64,000 bases of DNA, from the NCBI RefSeq assembly GCF_021155765.1, contig NC_060114.1, forward strand, positions 17,369,501-17,433,500. Reading direction: 5' to 3'. Positions 934 to 64,000 of this stretch are shown here, piece after piece. The DNA is from Diprion similis. Taxonomy: Eukaryota > Arthropoda > Insecta > Hymenoptera > Diprionidae. Position 1 is the first letter of the stretch, and each line of letters opens with the position of its first letter. The notes beneath the pieces are model-generated. The model was given only the letters and a program-made list of their open reading frames with translations, did no database searches and was not told the origin of the DNA. Both the position numbers and the translations under genes were made by a program.

Positions 934-3695
934 TTCGGCCAACGGCCGTCATTTCTCGACACCTCAAATTTCACAATATATTCTTTGAGGTCCAAACTAC
1001 CTACAAAAAAATGACGATTTGGCACGGCTGTTGAATAAAAGTCGTCCAAATTCATGTACATTCCGACTGGACTAAAACTTCACGCTCCTTACAACCGCCA
1101 ACTGTCGTCCCTTGTCACACAACATTCTATTGTTTTAGAATTTCGGCGTATGCGCATTAGACAATTCGAATTAGCTATTCACTGTGTATAGAATCAGTAT
1201 ATGGATAATCGTAAACGGAACGAGGAATAAAAGCAAGCTGGAGCAGGTGCCCCCCGTCCGTTACTTTAGCTTATACTTAAACCTTTCTTCTAAGAAACTC
1301 CTGCCTTTGTGGTCGGTTCTGACTATTGTTCGATATGGTGAAAGTACGCGACGTTCGTCACGGCTTAACCCAAACACAAAATCCTGCTTATAACGGGCAT
1401 CGAGAATAATACGTTCAGGTATAATTTAGCGTATGCATAAAACCGCATCGTAGGAGGAGGATTAAAACGTGAGTCATCGGTATCCTGTCGGTTTCTATAA
1501 ACCGAGCTCGAGACGAGAATCGGAGAATCTTGCACTTTCTAAATACGTTCGCATACGCTGCATGACCGTCAACAACCGCAACACACATCTCTCAAAATAA
1601 TGATAAACATATGAAGATTCTTTTATCATCAACGTGATCTTAGCTTCCACCTATGCAGGACTGCGGTGTAGTTTCACCGTGAAACCCGATCACCATCACG
1701 CTGCTGTGAGCACAGAGGTATACGGCATGAGCATCAGCTCATGTTCAAATGTATCATAGGTGCAGTTTCTTCTTCCGTCTTATAAATCCTCTTATATTCA
1801 TAATATGTAGGATACATTGCTGATCTCAACTGTAGGTTGTTATAGAACACCTATATTTATATCAGTTTTTTCTGCGACGTTTATTTTGGAATCGACTGGC
1901 CTGCACCCGACAATACGACGTAGGAATATTTTTTACCGACTCGACACTCCTCGCAAATTACATATTATGTTATACATAGTTTACGATAACCACTATCATT
2001 ACAGTCACTACAGTATCTTTAAAGCGTTGTAAATACCGACGTCGTTTGACGTTGTTCAAAATAGATATCATAAATGAAAATGAATTTTTTTTAACATATA
2101 TGAAAAGAAATGGAGCTAAAGTTATTAAGGTTATTGCAACGATTTACGTTTCTGGTAAAATCGTTATTTCGTAATTAGATGGATGTCTGAAGTGCAGTAA
2201 ATTATAACAGCACAAAAAACATATTCATATTTCGAAAATTTGGCTACTTCAAAGTCACTGTGAATCCCCCCCCCCCCCTCACTCCCCCCCTCCCCCCCGG
2301 CGTTTGGTTATATTAACGTTACAAATTTCAGCCTCAAGAGAAGAAAAATAATCTAGGCTGCACAGTTTTGTGAACTAACGGTAGACAAAACGTTGAATAA
2401 AAATCTAATTTGTCCATTATTGTCACAGCGTTAGGCCGAATTATGAAAGCATAACAAGAATAAAACATCATTTGATATACCGATTCGTTACAATGGCACC
2501 AAAATTGGTTCACGACTTATAGAATTTCTTGATTCGTGATCGGATTATAGATTAAAGAAAGAACGAGAGAAAGAAAGAAGTGTAAAAAAGCGGTAAGTCG
2601 ATGTATGTATGTACGTGCATATATAGTGTGCGTTCTCGGCATAAGCAGGCCAAGATAATCCAAGATGCAGAAAAAGAAAGAAAGAGAAAAAAATAAAATA
2701 AAAAAAAATAAGAAAAAACCCGAATAAACGAGTGAGGAAAAAACTGTGTCACTGTCCTCCATATACACTAAATATACATATATGTATACATGTATATACA
2801 ACAGCTAAAGCCGTCGTGTGTCCCGAATACAAAAACAAACAAATTAGTCAGACCACCTCTCCAGTGATGGTTATACACCGATGCTTTATGCGCTCGGCCG
2901 TTCGGTTATTGCACGACTATATATGTACCTATATCAAGCATAGATATACATATACTGGTGCGCTTGCATCGTCTTACAAGGAATGTTTTTCTGTCTGTAA
3001 CCCGTCTCGCTGTTAAACTGAATGGTTGCGATATTCTGGACAAATAAACATGTCTGGATTGAATATAACTTTGTACATACAACACGAGCACGTGTTACGC
3101 GTTTTTATCGAGCGTGTTTTCCGTACACAAAGTAGTAGGTACTCGTTTCTATGACGGTAAAGTGGTCTTTTCTGTACTGTGCGCATGCGCTGTCGCAGCA
3201 AGCAAGTCCGACATTACGCGACCCTAACCTCAATTTCGTGATTGGTGAAAAAACGCGTGACATACTCTTGTTGTATAAATTATCCTGTGCAACAAGGAGT
3301 TTGTCTTCTTCATGCACAATATACTATGCCAACAAATATCTCGATGATTGTCCGGTGCAATGACGTTGCAATAAGGTAACGAAGAAAACAGCAAAATACA
3401 ATATAAAACACACAAAGCTAACATTATCTGGACCCTGCAATGTTGTCTGCATTGTGACGTATCGTTGAGAATTTTTTTTTTATTATTAGTTTTATTCTCG
3501 CCGACAAGCGACGGCATTAACTTAATAAACAAGTGGTATAAATATTGGGATGTACAAACATTCAAGACGCTACCTGGTGTGAAAACGCAGTACTGCCGAC
3601 AGAAGGTCGCTCCGCGGGCTTAGCATACGACAGCTAATGTCAGCTCGGCACAACTTGTCGTTATTATTCGTTTATGTGTTAATATTCGGCCAAAT
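1..3695. other. Gene-free stretch with simple repeats
   Basis: I see no supportable gene here. It opens with an A run (1-15), has a T run at about 901-926 and a broken C run at about 2266-2299. Between about 2.5 and 3.0 kb the DNA is A/G-rich with TATATA-type low complexity. Several short open frames overlap on both strands at 3.0-3.6 kb, but none has a recognisable domain or a convincing splice context. The last 100 bases may be promoter and 5' leader of the THAP exon that follows. Confidence 0.5.
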
Positions 3696-4838
3696 ATGGA
3701 ATTTCCACCGCGAAAATTCAAAAGTAAAGTATTCTGCAGTGTTTACGGCTGCATGAGTAAGGCCGCGAGGAACGATACCGTGAGATTTTACCAATTCCCA
3801 GAGTCAAAACAAAGCTTTGTTAGGATTACAAATAAACTGGGAATGTTAGAAGATGTGGACCGAAGAGCAGTGTGCATTAAAGTATTGAAAATGGGGAAAA
3901 AAGTTACTTCCTCCATGAAAGTGTGCTCTTTACATTTTACAAAGGACGAATTTTTTTTTGGTAAATAAATTTTCAAAAAAAAAAATCTTACCAATACAAG
4001 CACTTATATATAAATTACTGAGCAAGTGAGTTATAGTTGCTCGATTCGTATCTATGAGCGGATCCACGTCACTTCACTCAAAAAAAAAAAACGTCAAGTC
4101 ACGGATCTTTGCGCCATTTGAAATATCCGTAGTACTATGTAAAAAAAGAATACAATTTCAAGGATTTTGATTTTAATTTCAAATAAAGGTTGGCTACTAA
4201 GCGTTATCCTGCGAATCATCGCTGAGAATATCGGCCCTTTTCAGAGCCACCAACATGTTGCAAGATAATCTATCAGTCACGTAGCACAACCTGAGTGAAA
4301 TAGAATTAAACCCAATTGCAGCACAGGTGTGCTCAACAAACCATAACCGTACTGGAATTCTCAGAACAGATATGAATTACTCCGAGAAAGGATGACCAGT
4401 GGACGGATACTGAAGGGCTAAGGTGGTTCAATAACTATTTCCATAGAATGGATAGCCCGGGTAAGTGGAAGAGCGTCAAATGAAATTTAACTCCATTATA
4501 TCGTATATAATATACGCAACACAGCGAGCTCGCGCGAGTAGCGCTGACGTGGATCGAGACGTTTCATTTTTTTTCTCCGGCCCTGGTAACTTCTCCATGA
4601 ATTTTTTTTTTCAGGATTGAAGAGAAAGGATACAGGTATCCGAAAAAAATTATCTCCACGAATTGTTGTTAGTCCCGCGGAAATGGCAGCGAAATCAAAA
4701 AAAAAAAAAAAACGGCAAAAAAATATTGAAAGAAATTTTTTTTTCCAAATAATTTTTTTTTTTTATCGAAGCGCATTCTTTTACAAACAGAATGATTGCA
4801 GGATCAGTCCGCTCCGATGTACACTTTCGGAGATATGA
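3696..4838 (+). CDS. THAP-type zinc-finger protein (first exon; second exon tentative)
   Basis: Exon 1 is 3696-3960 and encodes about 88 residues. It has a THAP-like C2CH zinc signature: C14 and C19 (CSVYGC), a FYQFP block at 31-35, and the closing VCSLHF with C77 and H80. THAP domains bind DNA and occur in transcription factors and in P-element-type transposases. The exon ends in a good donor (G/GTAAAT). A compatible acceptor (T-run, CAG) at 4614 lets exon 2 start at 4615 and continue in frame as GLKRKDTGIRKKLSPRIVVS, then a lysine run and a stop at 4836-4838. Two features are odd: the C19-C77 spacing is a little longer than usual, and the tryptophan normally present after the FP block is not seen. 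Exon 2 lies between the arms of the inverted repeat at 4060-5020, so it may be element sequence instead. No protein body beyond the domain was found. The THAP call is fairly sure; the gene model is not. Confidence 0.5.
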
Positions 4839-5020: not shown

Positions 5021-6006
5021 GTTCCTATACGATTTCTATCATATTCCTACTTACGTATTAAGTTTTTCCATATTACAAGTTGAACATTTTTTATAATGCC
5101 ACGCTAATCGTAGATATTACGCGTTTTTCATTAATTGTACCCCCGAATTCAACGCACAGCGTGCACACCGGGCTGTAGGCGACCTTCTGTCGATGATTTC
5201 CGCTGCCGCCGCCAGGTGGCAAGTTCTAGGCCACGCCTCGATTATACATACATCCCAATACCTCGATCACAATGTGTGCCGATAGTTTGTAGGTTAAGTA
5301 GAAAAATTGAGCGAGGTAAAGGAAAGGAAAAAAAAACAAGCATCACCACCATTTTTAATTCTGGTAATTAGACATCGAATTTTTCATAAATAGTGTCATA
5401 AAAAAATCAACTCGATGCTCGAGAACAATGTTTCTATTTCCAACAAAATAATTTGGGACGAGGGCACGTGTTCCGTAGAAAAACGACACTCAATTAAACC
5501 GTAAGAATTATGGTTCCGTGGAATATAACAAAGTACTGAGATTCGGAGTATATATTTTTTTTTTGTTCCTACTTTAACCTGGAAATATAATCATTATTAA
5601 AAAGCATAAAATTGATTTTTCCAGTCCATTTCAGTTTATGTGAAAAAAAAGTAACTGACTGGCAAAAAATGGGCGGATTTTAGGGGGAAATTGACTGTGG
5701 AAGGGTAAATTTAGGAGAAACCTTCAAAACTTTCGCCCAAAAATCTAGCTCCCTAATGACTATCCGTAGGAAAAATTGAAGAAAAAAAAAAGAAAGTATC
5801 TGAGATCTGAAGGATTTTTTTTCACACGAAACGTCCGATAGACGCATATAATAAAATATCTGTGAATCTAATTTGAATCGTTTAACTAGTCAAGGATGGC
5901 GGTGATTTTTTTCTTCCACACTTAATAACTGAAAAAAATATCGTTCATCCTCCGAATGTCTGAAGTTAAAGGTAAAACTTTGTAAGAAAAATGTATATAT
6001 ATGAGA
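5021..6006. other. Intergenic, no feature seen
   Basis: AT-rich sequence with several A and T runs. An open frame at 5135-5371 has no domain signature and no splice support, so no gene is called. Confidence 0.5.
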
Positions 6007-7181
6007 GTGATTTTTTTTGAACGACTATTTTTTTTTTCAGTCCCCATCGAAAATGTTCTTCTATATGTCGAACAAAAATTCCTTAAAAGTTATAGCCCTT
6101 AATATTAATATTAAGTACTCGCCCAGGGCCTGAAAAGATTTCCCATATAAAATACACGTGAATCGAAGCGTTTTTTTTTCAAATCTCTACAACGCAGTGG
6201 AATTTTATGACATCACATTGGTCTTGGTCGCAATTTACGCAGAATTGAACGATCTTCGAAAGTGTCTAAACGTCGTGAGTCCAACTTACACTGGTGAGAT
6301 GGTACAGGTCACTATAGTTGATTTTTACCCAAAATTCTCTATTTTTCTCTGTTATCTCCGAAATGATCAACTTCACCAAAAAGATGTTAAAAAAAACTTT
6401 GTTGGAAATTCAATTTTCTACAAAAAAGGTCCTGTAGACTTGATTGCTCAGATTGATATTTTTTGAGATATCGAACTTTAACTTCTTGTCGTATAAAATT
6501 TGTATGGTTTATCGAATCAAACGTTTTAAATTATTGATATGGCATTGGAATTTGATTTTTTTCGATTCGATTCGATCCATTCGATCTATTCCATTGGAAT
6601 ATCAGTAATTCAAAACGTTTGATTCAATAAACCATAATGTTTATTGGTTATATTAGATTAAAACGTTTAATTCAATAGAACATAAAAATTTTATACGTCA
6701 AGTAAGTTGAATTCCGATATCTCAAGAAATATCAATCTGAGCATTTTGGTCTAAAGGACCTTTCTTATAGGAAATCAAATTTCCAACAAAGTTGTTCTCT
6801 ACATTTTTTTGGTAGAGTTGATCATTTCGGAGATAACAGCGAAAAGTAGAGAATTTTGGGTTAAAACCAACTATAGTGACCTGTACCATCTCACCAATGT
6901 AAGTTGGACTCACGACGTTTTAGACACTTTCGAAGATCGTTCAATTCTGCGTAAATTGCGACCAAGACCAATGTGATATCATAAAATTCCACTGAGTTGT
7001 AGAGATTTGAAAAAAAACGCTTCGATTCACGTGTATTTTATATGGGAAATCTTTTCACGCCCTGGGCGAGTACTTAATATTAATATTAAGAGCTATAACT
7101 TTTAGGGAATTTTTTGTTCGACATATAGAACAAAATTTTCGATGGGGACTGAAAAAAAAACAGTCGTTCAAAAAAAATCAC
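6007..7181. repeat. 1.17-kb near-perfect palindrome (long foldback)
   Basis: The left arm (about 6007-6540) and right arm (about 6602-7181) are reverse complements, with few mismatches by eye. The arms open with GTGATTTTTTTTGAACGAC and close with its complement. Shared internal blocks include CAGTCCCCATCGAAAATG, CTTAATATTAATATTAAG, CACGTGAATCGAAGCG and GGTACAGGTCACTATAGTTG. The loop is about 60 bp and contains a CGATTCGATT direct repeat. The right arm has an extra partial duplication of an ACGTTT(G/A)ATTCAATA unit near the loop. No transposase is present. It is either a foldback-type transposable element or an inverted duplication, and its RNA would form a hairpin of over 500 bp. Confidence 0.9.
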
Positions 7182-8198
7182 CCCAATAAATATATATGAA
7201 AAATGGAAGAAGAGTGATTGAAAAAAAAATATAATTTGTATAATTTCTTGCACACACGTATAAACATGACAATCGTGTTTATCATGAACGTAGAAACTCT
7301 TTTGAGTTGATCAAGTGTTGAAAAAAAAAAAAAAAAAAATGCAGACAGAAAAAACGAACCGCAACAAGAAAAGGAAAAACAGTAGGTAACACATATTTGA
7401 ATGATTATAATTATCGGTTTGTAACAAACACCCTTGTTGCCTCTTGCATATAATGGCGTTCGAGTTGCCGCGATGCCGTTTCACGTATAACATGTTGCTA
7501 AATGGCCTGAAACGTATAAATGTACAAGGTCCTCCGCATAATTATGATCCACGCATTTAAATGAGTTACGCAACGCACGGCATTATAGGTGGACTATGTA
7601 GGTAGACATAAAGTGGGTACAAAGTACCCGTAGTTAGATAGATAGATGTCCGTGTAATATGCCCCGTTCCTCAACGCGGAAGTAATTACCTATACATTTA
7701 TAAACGTGCTGACTGCTGCTGCTGCTGCTGCTGCTGCTGAGACATCGTTTTGCACATTACAATGCGATTATTATAGGCAGGCAGAGGAATGATTAGAAAA
7801 GAAGAAAAAAATCACAAAAGATGCTAGAAGTGAAAAGGAATAATACACCCTACATTGTATAAAGCCGAAACGAATCCTGACGAACTATATTTCACAATCA
7901 GTCGAGAAGAGGAGGAGAGAGATTATAAGTATGTAGCGAGAGACAGACGGAGGAGGTACGACGACGCAGACCCTGAAACGGAAATCATCTCCATCAATCA
8001 CAGGATGGCCCTGGTTGATAATAGTCCAGCATGAATCACGATCGGCTAGCTGCTAGAAACGCGACGGAGGGGGAGAAAATTCATCGATATGATTTAGCGA
8101 CGATAATGAGGATGATAATGAGGAGAACGACGACGACGACGACGACGCGATGCGATGCGGTTATCGAATGTTAAGGTGCATATAAAGACCCGTTGTAC
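7182..8198. other. Intergenic with trinucleotide repeats
   Basis: No gene is visible. It contains an A run at about 7320-7340, nine CTG units at 7713-7739 and about seven ACG units near 8127-8147. None of the repeats lies in a supportable coding frame. Confidence 0.6.
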
Positions 8199-26754: not shown

Positions 26755-27415
26755 ATGCCTCGACGAGGACGTTCCGCAAGTCCACCACCCCGAAGGTAGT
26801 AGAAAGATATTGAAATAAAGTAATTTCATCGACGCATTACATCACTATCACGCGTATTATATTTATAATCATTTTTCTCGAAACGCAAATTCATGCAATA
26901 GTCAGCTTCACGTTTACGTCGTGTAATTTTTGACTTCAGCAAGTCTTGCTCTTCCGGGATCTTTTCCATATCTTTTACTTCTGTTTACTGATTTTTTTTT
27001 AATCAATGCTGGATTGTCTTCATGCTTTCACAGGGCGACGGTACCTGCAAGGGCTGCGCCACCTCCAGCGCAGCCACCGATGCATGCTGCACCATCAGCC
27101 CCAATGGCCGCTCCATCCCAAGGTCCATCTCTGATGGGACAAATGGCAGCAACCGCCGGTGGTGTGGCAATTGGATCAGCAGTTGGACATACAATTGGAC
27201 ATGCGATGACTGGAATGTTCAGCGGAGGTTCGGACCAACCTGCGGCTGCTGCTCCGGCTGCGCCTCAAGCTTCCATGGCAGGCAATGCCGAACCCAGCGG
27301 ACCTTGCGCATGGGAGATTAAACAGTTCCTCGAATGTGCGCAGGGTCAATCAGACTTGACTCTGTGCGAGGGCTTCAACGAGGCCCTTCGCCAGTGCAAA
27401 GTTTCAAACCGTTAG
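26755..27415 (+). CDS. CHCHD2: CHCHD2 (MNRR1) twin CX9C mitochondrial protein
   Basis: Two exons, 26755-26795 and 27034-27415, encode 140 aa. Exon 1 gives [13 protein letters not shown], the basic N-terminus typical of the family, and ends at a GTAGTA donor; the phase-2 join completes an arginine codon. Exon 2 begins after TTTCACAG. An alanine/proline-rich segment is followed by the conserved central block [20 protein letters not shown] (a glycine-rich, weakly hydrophobic stretch). The C-terminal CHCH domain has both CX9C motifs, [11 protein letters not shown] and [11 protein letters not shown]. In the family this intermembrane-space protein works with MICOS and respiratory complex IV and has a nuclear role under stress. 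The frame is open upstream of 27034, but that part is intron. Length and every key cysteine match the family, so the call is firm. Confidence 0.93.
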
Positions 27416-48762: not shown

Positions 48763-58867
<10,105 letters not shown>

Positions 58868-62504: not shown

Positions 62505-64000
62505 ATGGCACGAAAAACTGATAATGTTCGAGGCATCAATGTCGCCGTTGTCGGACTCTCTGGGACTGAAAAAGACAAGGGACAATTAGGAGTGGGAAAA
62601 TCTTGTCTCTGCAATCGATTCATGCGATCACTTAGCGATGACTACAGTGTTGATCATATATCGGTATTGTCACAGGTAAAAAACAACGAAATTAGCATAT
62701 AATTTTTATTTTATTTTTTCGCAAGAGTTCGTCGCAGCATTTTCATCTCGTTGCATGTAACAGATTTACTTTAACTTTACGTATAGTTTCAATGAAACTT
62801 GTTCTCAATAGTTTGTTATGAATCAGGTCTTTGTACTCCGACGATATTCACGCCATGTAAGTTGAAATAATCCTGAGAAATTATCTGCGTCTTTTTTCTC
62901 TTTCCTTATTCCAGTCGGATTTCAGCGGTCGAGTTGTTAACAACGATCATTTTCTATACTGGGGCGAGGTTGTCAAGTCGTCCGAAGACGGCACAGATTT
63001 TCAGTTCCAAGTTATCGAGCACACGGAATTTATCGACGACGCCTCGTTCCAGCCGTTCAAAGGTGGCAAGATGGAACCTTACGCAAAACGATGCGCGGCT
63101 ACAAAGATATCTAGCGCCGAAAAGCTGATGTATATATGTAAGAATCAGCTCGGCATAGAGAAAGAATACGAGCAGAAAGTGTTGCCGGACGGAAAGCTCA
63201 ACATCGATGGATTTATATGCGTGTTCGACGTTAGCGTCGTCCCTCACAGGTCAATAGAAAAGCAGGTTGAAATCGTGGCGAATATCTTGAACAATTTGGT
63301 CAAGACGAAGAAGCCTGTAGTGTTGGTGACTACTAAAAATGACGACGCTAACGAGCAGTACGTCAAGGAAGCGGAGAAGCTGGTAACCAGGAAAGAGTAC
63401 AAAGGCGGAATTCTTATAGTCGAAACTTCGGCGCACGAGAATATAAACATTGAACTTTCTTTCATGATATTGGCACAACTTATCGACAAAACTAAAATGC
63501 GCAGTAAAGTTATTCCCTTCGCCGAAGCTGCTAGAGCCAGGAAAGAGCTCCTTGACGCATCTACAGAATCTCTGCAGAGACTGATACGAATTCACGTTAC
63601 CGATTACCGTGCCCTCTGGTCTCAGGCATCTAAGAAATTATCGCAGCACAAGGAATTCGTTGCTTTTGTACAATTGTTTGGCATCGACGCTACTCAAAGG
63701 CTGTTCAGGCGACATATTAAGAAATTAAAAGACGAACAAATGGCCAAGAAAATTCAAGGCTATTTGGATATGTTACCGGATGTACTTCACGAAATTTGCC
63801 CAGATATCGCAAATCTGATTAACGAGTAAGGTTCTATCAAGGGAATAGAATAGCTCGCTGTTTTCGCTATCGTTCTTATTCAGTATTCAACGCATTTTGT
63901 ATAACTATTTTCAGAGAGTGGTCAACCGTTCAACAATTCATAAAAGAGCATCCCGATTTTCATCAGTATTTCTACGAATGTCCCGAAGATATACCGTGGA
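62505..64000 (+). CDS. RhoGAPp190: p190 RhoGAP, N-terminal part (cut by window end)
   Basis: Three exons are visible: 62505-62675, 62915-63825 and 63915 to the edge, about 389 codons. The N-terminal GTPase-like domain starts [20 protein letters not shown] and has the P-loop [14 protein letters not shown]. The family-specific [15 protein letters not shown] and [15 protein letters not shown] follow, then [15 protein letters not shown] and the TTKND motif. The first FF repeat begins near [20 protein letters not shown]. In full-length p190 proteins, four FF repeats, pseudo-GTPase domains and a C-terminal RhoGAP domain follow; they lie beyond this window. p190RhoGAP turns off Rho downstream of integrins and Src-family kinases, and in flies stabilises axon branches. 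The ATG at 62505 matches the family start; an upstream in-frame TTG is not used. The call is firm, the end is missing. Confidence 0.93.

Follow-up and report, generated by a model that had tools for sequence, protein, structure and literature searches.

The window analysed here comprises 64,000 nucleotides of Diprion similis (Diprionidae; assembly GCF_021155765.1, contig NC_060114.1, positions 17,369,501 to 17,433,500 of the forward strand). At window positions 6003-7185 it holds a palindrome of 1183 bp with mirrored open frames in its two arms. We conclude with high confidence that this palindrome is a non-autonomous cut-and-paste DNA transposon, belonging to a palindromic, foldback-like family of miniature inverted-repeat transposable elements (MITEs), most likely of the hAT superfamily. 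The family occupies at least 40 scored places in the genome, with conserved ends, similar lengths and, at many of them, 8-bp target-site duplications. The mirrored frames do not encode a conserved protein, and the second frame is best explained by sequence of one arm having been rewritten from the other.

Structure and ends of the palindrome

The initial annotation had placed two near-identical inverted arms at 6007-7181. The palindrome is genuine, and comparison with other copies reset its ends about 4 bp outward. Its inverted blocks 6029-6484 and 6704-7160 pair at 88-98% complementarity, and the outer inverted blocks extend to 5991-6036 and 7152-7197. The 60-bp loop proposed between the arms was right only roughly: the main arms extend to about 6529 and from about 6658, which leaves 128 bp between them, and a smaller inverted pair (6503-6551 and 6588-6636, with 36 bp between its halves) lies inside the palindrome. 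In keeping with the very long double-stranded RNA (dsRNA) that had been anticipated for a transcript, the single strand is predicted to form one long hairpin of -780 kcal/mol, a value given with no shuffle control since the sequence exceeds 1000 bases. A 23-base end motif, allowing up to three mismatches, is found nowhere in the window but at the element's two ends, against 0.00 occurrences expected; the palindrome is therefore not a product of chance. Copies of the family start with TAGGGTGATTTTTTTTGAACGAC and share a sharp boundary across their aligned ends, TAGGGTGATTTTTTTTGAACGACTATTT, relative to which the ends of the window copy are altered to GAGAG and TGGGG. The features of the element are as follows.

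5995-6002, no strand: left target-site duplication ATATATAT, one mismatch to the right copy
6003-6529, + strand: left arm (A arm), starting with GAGAGTGATTTTTTTTGAACGAC, the family consensus end being TAGGGTGA (inverted blocks, aligned ends, end motif)
6530-6657, no strand: central spacer between the main arms, containing part of the smaller inverted pair (inverted-block map)
6658-7185, - strand: right arm (B arm), the inverted copy, ending in TGGGGTGATTTTTTTTGAACGAC as read on the - strand (inverted blocks, aligned ends, end motif)
6816-6955, - strand: putative conversion tract in the right arm, minimum extent, in which 11 of 12 diagnostic sites show the A state (mirror of 6234-6372 through arm pairing)
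7186-7193, no strand: right target-site duplication ATAAATAT, matching the left one at 7 of 8 positions (flank comparison)
6158-6466, + strand: open frame of the left arm, not a gene (frame intactness, substitution counts)
6722-6913, - strand: open frame of the right arm; the usual right-arm stop falls in the converted stretch (diagnostic sites, substitution counts)

A dispersed family of similar copies

A search of the genome with the left arm, as had been proposed for an estimate of copy number, returned 98 matching stretches in 269 Mb. The copy set studied here consists of the 40 scored places, a lower bound drawn from 208 first-look candidates; the window copy was taken from the window and the other 39 were fetched. 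Element length is 1139-1202 bp in the 39 places that could be measured over both arms. The remaining copy, L027, gave one arm only, and L047 matches poorly in its right arm. A 30-base end motif with up to three mismatches occurs 99 times genome-wide and never in the reversed control. The family thus shows terminal inverted repeats (TIRs) with a conserved end and many dispersed copies of similar length without coding capacity, as MITEs and other non-autonomous TIR DNA transposons do, and its 1.2 kb is long for a MITE.

Ordinary copies (defined below) diverge from their majority sequence by a mean of 3.6% in A arms and 4.2% in B arms. The four symmetric copies diverge from their consensus by 2.8% and 2.3%, a rough comparison since a four-copy consensus is biased low. 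No sign of very recent activity is evident among the copies studied. We recognised no published description of the family in the literature; repeat databases lay outside this search, so it may be described already.

Several places depart from the common pattern. L015 and L021, on different contigs, have flanks in common and left arms that are 99.8% identical, and represent a segment duplicated either in the genome or in the assembly; because of the common flanks, the 40 places may equal 39 insertions. In L034 the inverted repeat runs about 70 bp past the element ends into the flanks on each side; in L029 it runs farther still, and a third partial arm is present. The same end motif is found at C10:17367113, 8.4 kb upstream of the window copy and just outside the window. 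Pairs of ends with unusual spacing lie at C10:1595136-1598219 (3084 bp), C4:6082138-6083917 (1780 bp) and C5:1732763-1733244 (482 bp); such pairs, spaced from 482 to 3084 bp, may be larger or smaller relatives.

Target-site duplications

An imperfect duplication of 8 bp lies on either side of the window copy (5995-6002 and 7186-7193). With a first placement of the element ends, available for 37 of the 40 copies (L021, L027 and L047 dropped), exact 8-bp duplications were found in 12 of 37, compared with 0.6 expected from pairing the ends of different copies. A stricter placement retained 31 copies and dropped L011, L016, L018, L021, L022, L023, L027, L029 and L047. Exact duplications of 8 bp then flank 14 copies and exact duplications of 9 bp three; four copies, including that of the window, have one mismatch, and ten have none. 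A target-site duplication of fixed length is a further character of MITEs and non-autonomous TIR elements. These dispersed copies with target-site duplications bear out one option of the initial annotation, a foldback-type transposon, and dispose of another, a recent one-off inverted duplication.

All 14 exact 8-bp sites have T at positions 2 and 4, and 13 of them have A at position 7. An 8-bp duplication with the preference nTnnnnAn is the pattern of Ac-type hAT elements such as Hermes, for which excerpts of two papers give 8-bp duplications and nTnnnnAn as the preferred target (PMC10368747; PMC2803484). The window family resembles Hermes in both respects, duplication length and T2/A7 preference.

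The mirrored frames are not maintained as coding sequence

Both open frames that had been described, 6158-6466 (+) and 6722-6913 (-), exist. The occurrence of the same peptide in the two arms is nevertheless a by-product of symmetry and arm-to-arm conversion and not the mark of a conserved protein, as judged from frame intactness and substitution counts. The 102-codon frame is intact in a single A arm of 40, that of the window copy itself, and in none of 39 B arms; it is frameshifted in 27 and 28 of them, respectively. A small protein could find support in its 65-codon core, which the majority sequence of the A arms leaves open and which 17 of 40 A arms preserve intact. The B-arm majority has an internal stop in this core, and among 38 B arms (one was dropped as too short) the core is intact in four, interrupted by the stop only in 25 and frameshifted in nine.

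Substitutions fall evenly across the three codon positions (118/125/127 in A arms, 109/118/99 in B arms). Synonymous, nonsynonymous and stop changes number 93/263/14 in A arms against 95.8/257.4/16.8 expected, and 81/238/7 in B arms against 76.3/235.4/14.3, which is as random in both arms. Stops in B arms are the sole low class (7 against 14.3, standard deviation 3.8, just under two standard deviations) and would favour a protein. So would the ratio of nonsynonymous to synonymous change (dN/dS) between the two frames of the window, whose calculation had been recommended: the two arms differ by 8 synonymous and 15 nonsynonymous changes, giving a value of 0.45 that, taken alone, would look mildly constrained. 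Searches of Pfam with the arm frames gave no family at cut-off and one sub-threshold match (E 0.1) that we took as chance, and no relative was found among solved structures. Rfam showed no family at gathering score within the window, and a tRNA search of the window gave none. Frame intactness and the random-like substitutions led us to reject a coding reading of the mirrored frames, and a real small protein kept in both arms is most improbable.

Two arm lineages and probable exchange between them

Mean identity is 92.9% among A arms, 91.3% among B arms and 87.7% between A and B arms. Arms are thus more alike within a class than between classes, and the copies therefore descend from an imperfect palindrome. 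A and B arms are told apart by 28 sites, defined on 33 ordinary copies; the window copy, the four symmetric copies and L047 were set apart, and L027 has no B arm. In the ordinary copies the state of the other arm is seen in 28 of 924 cells in A arms and in 32 of 918 in B arms, and L015, L021, L041 and L046 contain short runs of such states.

In the B arm of the window copy, 11 of the 12 outermost sites show the A state, the 14 innermost sites show the B state, and two sites show neither. The probability of this order arising by chance is about 1.6 in a million. Site 6368, which falls within the A-like stretch of the window B arm, is C in A arms and T in 30 of 33 ordinary B arms; the window B arm has C. 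Setting the A frame on the majority B sequence, we infer that the B-arm stop lies at this site. The window right arm thus lacks its usual stop because left-arm sequence overwrote part of it, and arm-to-arm rewriting best explains the second open frame. In L031, L039, L044 and L045, which make up a subfamily of four copies, each of the two arms has A-like sequence on the outside followed by a B-like block, and the arm consensus sequences are identical across the first 550 alignment columns. The four symmetric copies have new bases common to both arms at seven sites, those at 6080 and 6085 being present in 4 of 4 copies. State blocks of this kind would be expected if one arm converted the other or if sequence was exchanged with an arm belonging to a different copy; they are not the expected outcome of independent point changes. 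The donor of the window tract could be its own A arm, which matches at 134 of 139 positions (96.4%), or another copy, the best other A arm reaching 95.0%; these identities are too close to tell the two apart.

In a tree of whole elements, the four TAGGGC copies and the window copy form one group (100/99), largely on converted sites. When the columns that distinguish A from B were removed, the A-arm tree united these five copies in 0% of 200 bootstrap trees. The window copy and the TAGGGC copies share 7 of 24 derived non-diagnostic sites, compared with up to 8 of 26 for other copies. Their common ancestry is doubtful on the A-arm tree and the derived-site counts. One site points the other way: at 6258 all five copies have G in each of their arms, and among the other copies G occurs there in only 1 of 33 A arms and 3 of 33 B arms. 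The conversion events of the window copy and of the four TAGGGC copies were probably separate.

Neighbouring features

About 2 kb from the element, the window contains an open frame with a THAP domain (3624-3968, + strand; PF05485, E 1.2e-06). THAP domains are found in P-type transposases and in host proteins. Pieces of host genes lie further along the window.

26927-27415, + strand: piece of a gene for a CHCH-domain protein
51148-51705, - strand: piece of a gene for an S-adenosylhomocysteine-hydrolase-like protein
62861-63829, + strand: piece of a gene with p190 RhoGAP FF and Ras domains

Class of the element and rival explanations

Given a DNA transposon, hAT would be the somewhat more probable superfamily, and Mutator-like a tentative second choice. 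The target rule favours hAT, while the arm length and the few 9-bp duplications favour Mutator. Within hAT, BuT2 of Drosophila likewise has short non-coding derivatives, of 532-927 bp and with 24 copies in D. willistoni in the part of the report concerned (PMC3942097). Several observations weigh against our assignment. Ten of the 31 placed copies lack an 8- or 9-bp duplication even when one mismatch is allowed, and placement failed for 9 of the 40. Of the exact 8-bp duplications, 3 of 14 are plain ATATATAT, which is weak evidence in AT repeats. The superfamily is called from non-coding copies. Finally, hAT terminal repeats usually measure 10-25 bp according to an excerpt of PMC3942097, a usual rather than strict feature, in contrast with the two whole arms of about 530 bp found here. 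A Mutator-like element (MULE) of the same kind, moved by a MULE transposase, is the main rival reading, and we regard it as doubtful. MULEs typically have inverted repeats above 100 bp and 8-10-bp duplications, as in this family with its long arms, its mostly 8-bp duplications and its three exact 9-bp cases; excerpts of the sources describe 8- or 9-bp duplications for Muta1 of Aedes aegypti (PMC5225508) and a Mutator/foldback family with MITE-like members for Tm1 of root-knot nematodes (PMC3169594). Muta1 and Tm1 thus resemble the window family in their long inverted repeats, 8-10-bp duplications and MITE-like members. The same excerpts report no target preference for them, and none is apparent in Muta1, whereas T2 and A7 are nearly fixed here; Tm1 also has composite repeats with short tandem units, which were not seen in the window family (PMC5225508; PMC3169594). 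Drosophila offers another parallel in Galileo and other foldback-like elements, which according to an excerpt of PMC4168063 carry inverted repeats of great length and include copies consisting of these alone, as here.

The end TAGGG fits the hAT end pattern YARNG, which counts against a MULE. Galileo has a 7-bp duplication, in which it differs from the window family, as it does in its end sequence. The initial annotation had also raised a functional hairpin-RNA locus, whose transcript would be cut by Dicer-2 into endogenous small interfering RNAs (siRNAs). The element is a long inverted repeat able to form dsRNA, with a long hairpin predicted, and a transcript would form long dsRNA as at known hairpin-RNA loci; hairpin RNAs are a known source of siRNA in flies, as far as the source excerpts go. 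However, the element differs from such loci in being a member of a many-copy transposon family, and every family copy with both arms would fold likewise; nothing sets the window copy apart. A functional locus of this kind seems unlikely, and any siRNA production could be incidental to the transposon rather than an alternative to it. For the window copy, nothing favours an error of assembly or one recent inverted duplication; at most, L015 and L021 may be a duplicated segment. Same-length palindromes with the same ends and with target duplications recur elsewhere with different flanks, which makes an assembly error very improbable.

Proposed history and significance

For the transposon itself, a transposase from elsewhere in the genome would recognise the two like ends and excise the element, which would be reinserted at AT-rich sites of the nTnnnnAn type. 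Now and then the arms would be rewritten from each other through self-pairing, or else from one in a different copy; copies rewritten in this way could spread. Because the element is symmetric, frames are mirrored: one open by chance in one arm would reappear in the other.

A palindromic non-autonomous DNA-transposon family is a known kind of thing. Mirrored frames on a 1.2-kb hairpin are the expected look of a palindromic transposon, and the striking signal is misleading. What most merits a specialist's attention in the finding is the record of arm rewriting: 28 sites distinguish the arms, and with them exchange between arms can be followed one site at a time, and tallied, within a mobile element. 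A bolder and rather speculative possibility is that of a self-templating palindromic transposon, in which rewriting of the arms through a hairpin or cruciform, during excision repair or replication, would renew the symmetry and found subfamilies. If this were true, the renewal cycle would be seen in two separate snapshots, one in the four TAGGGC copies and one in the window copy.
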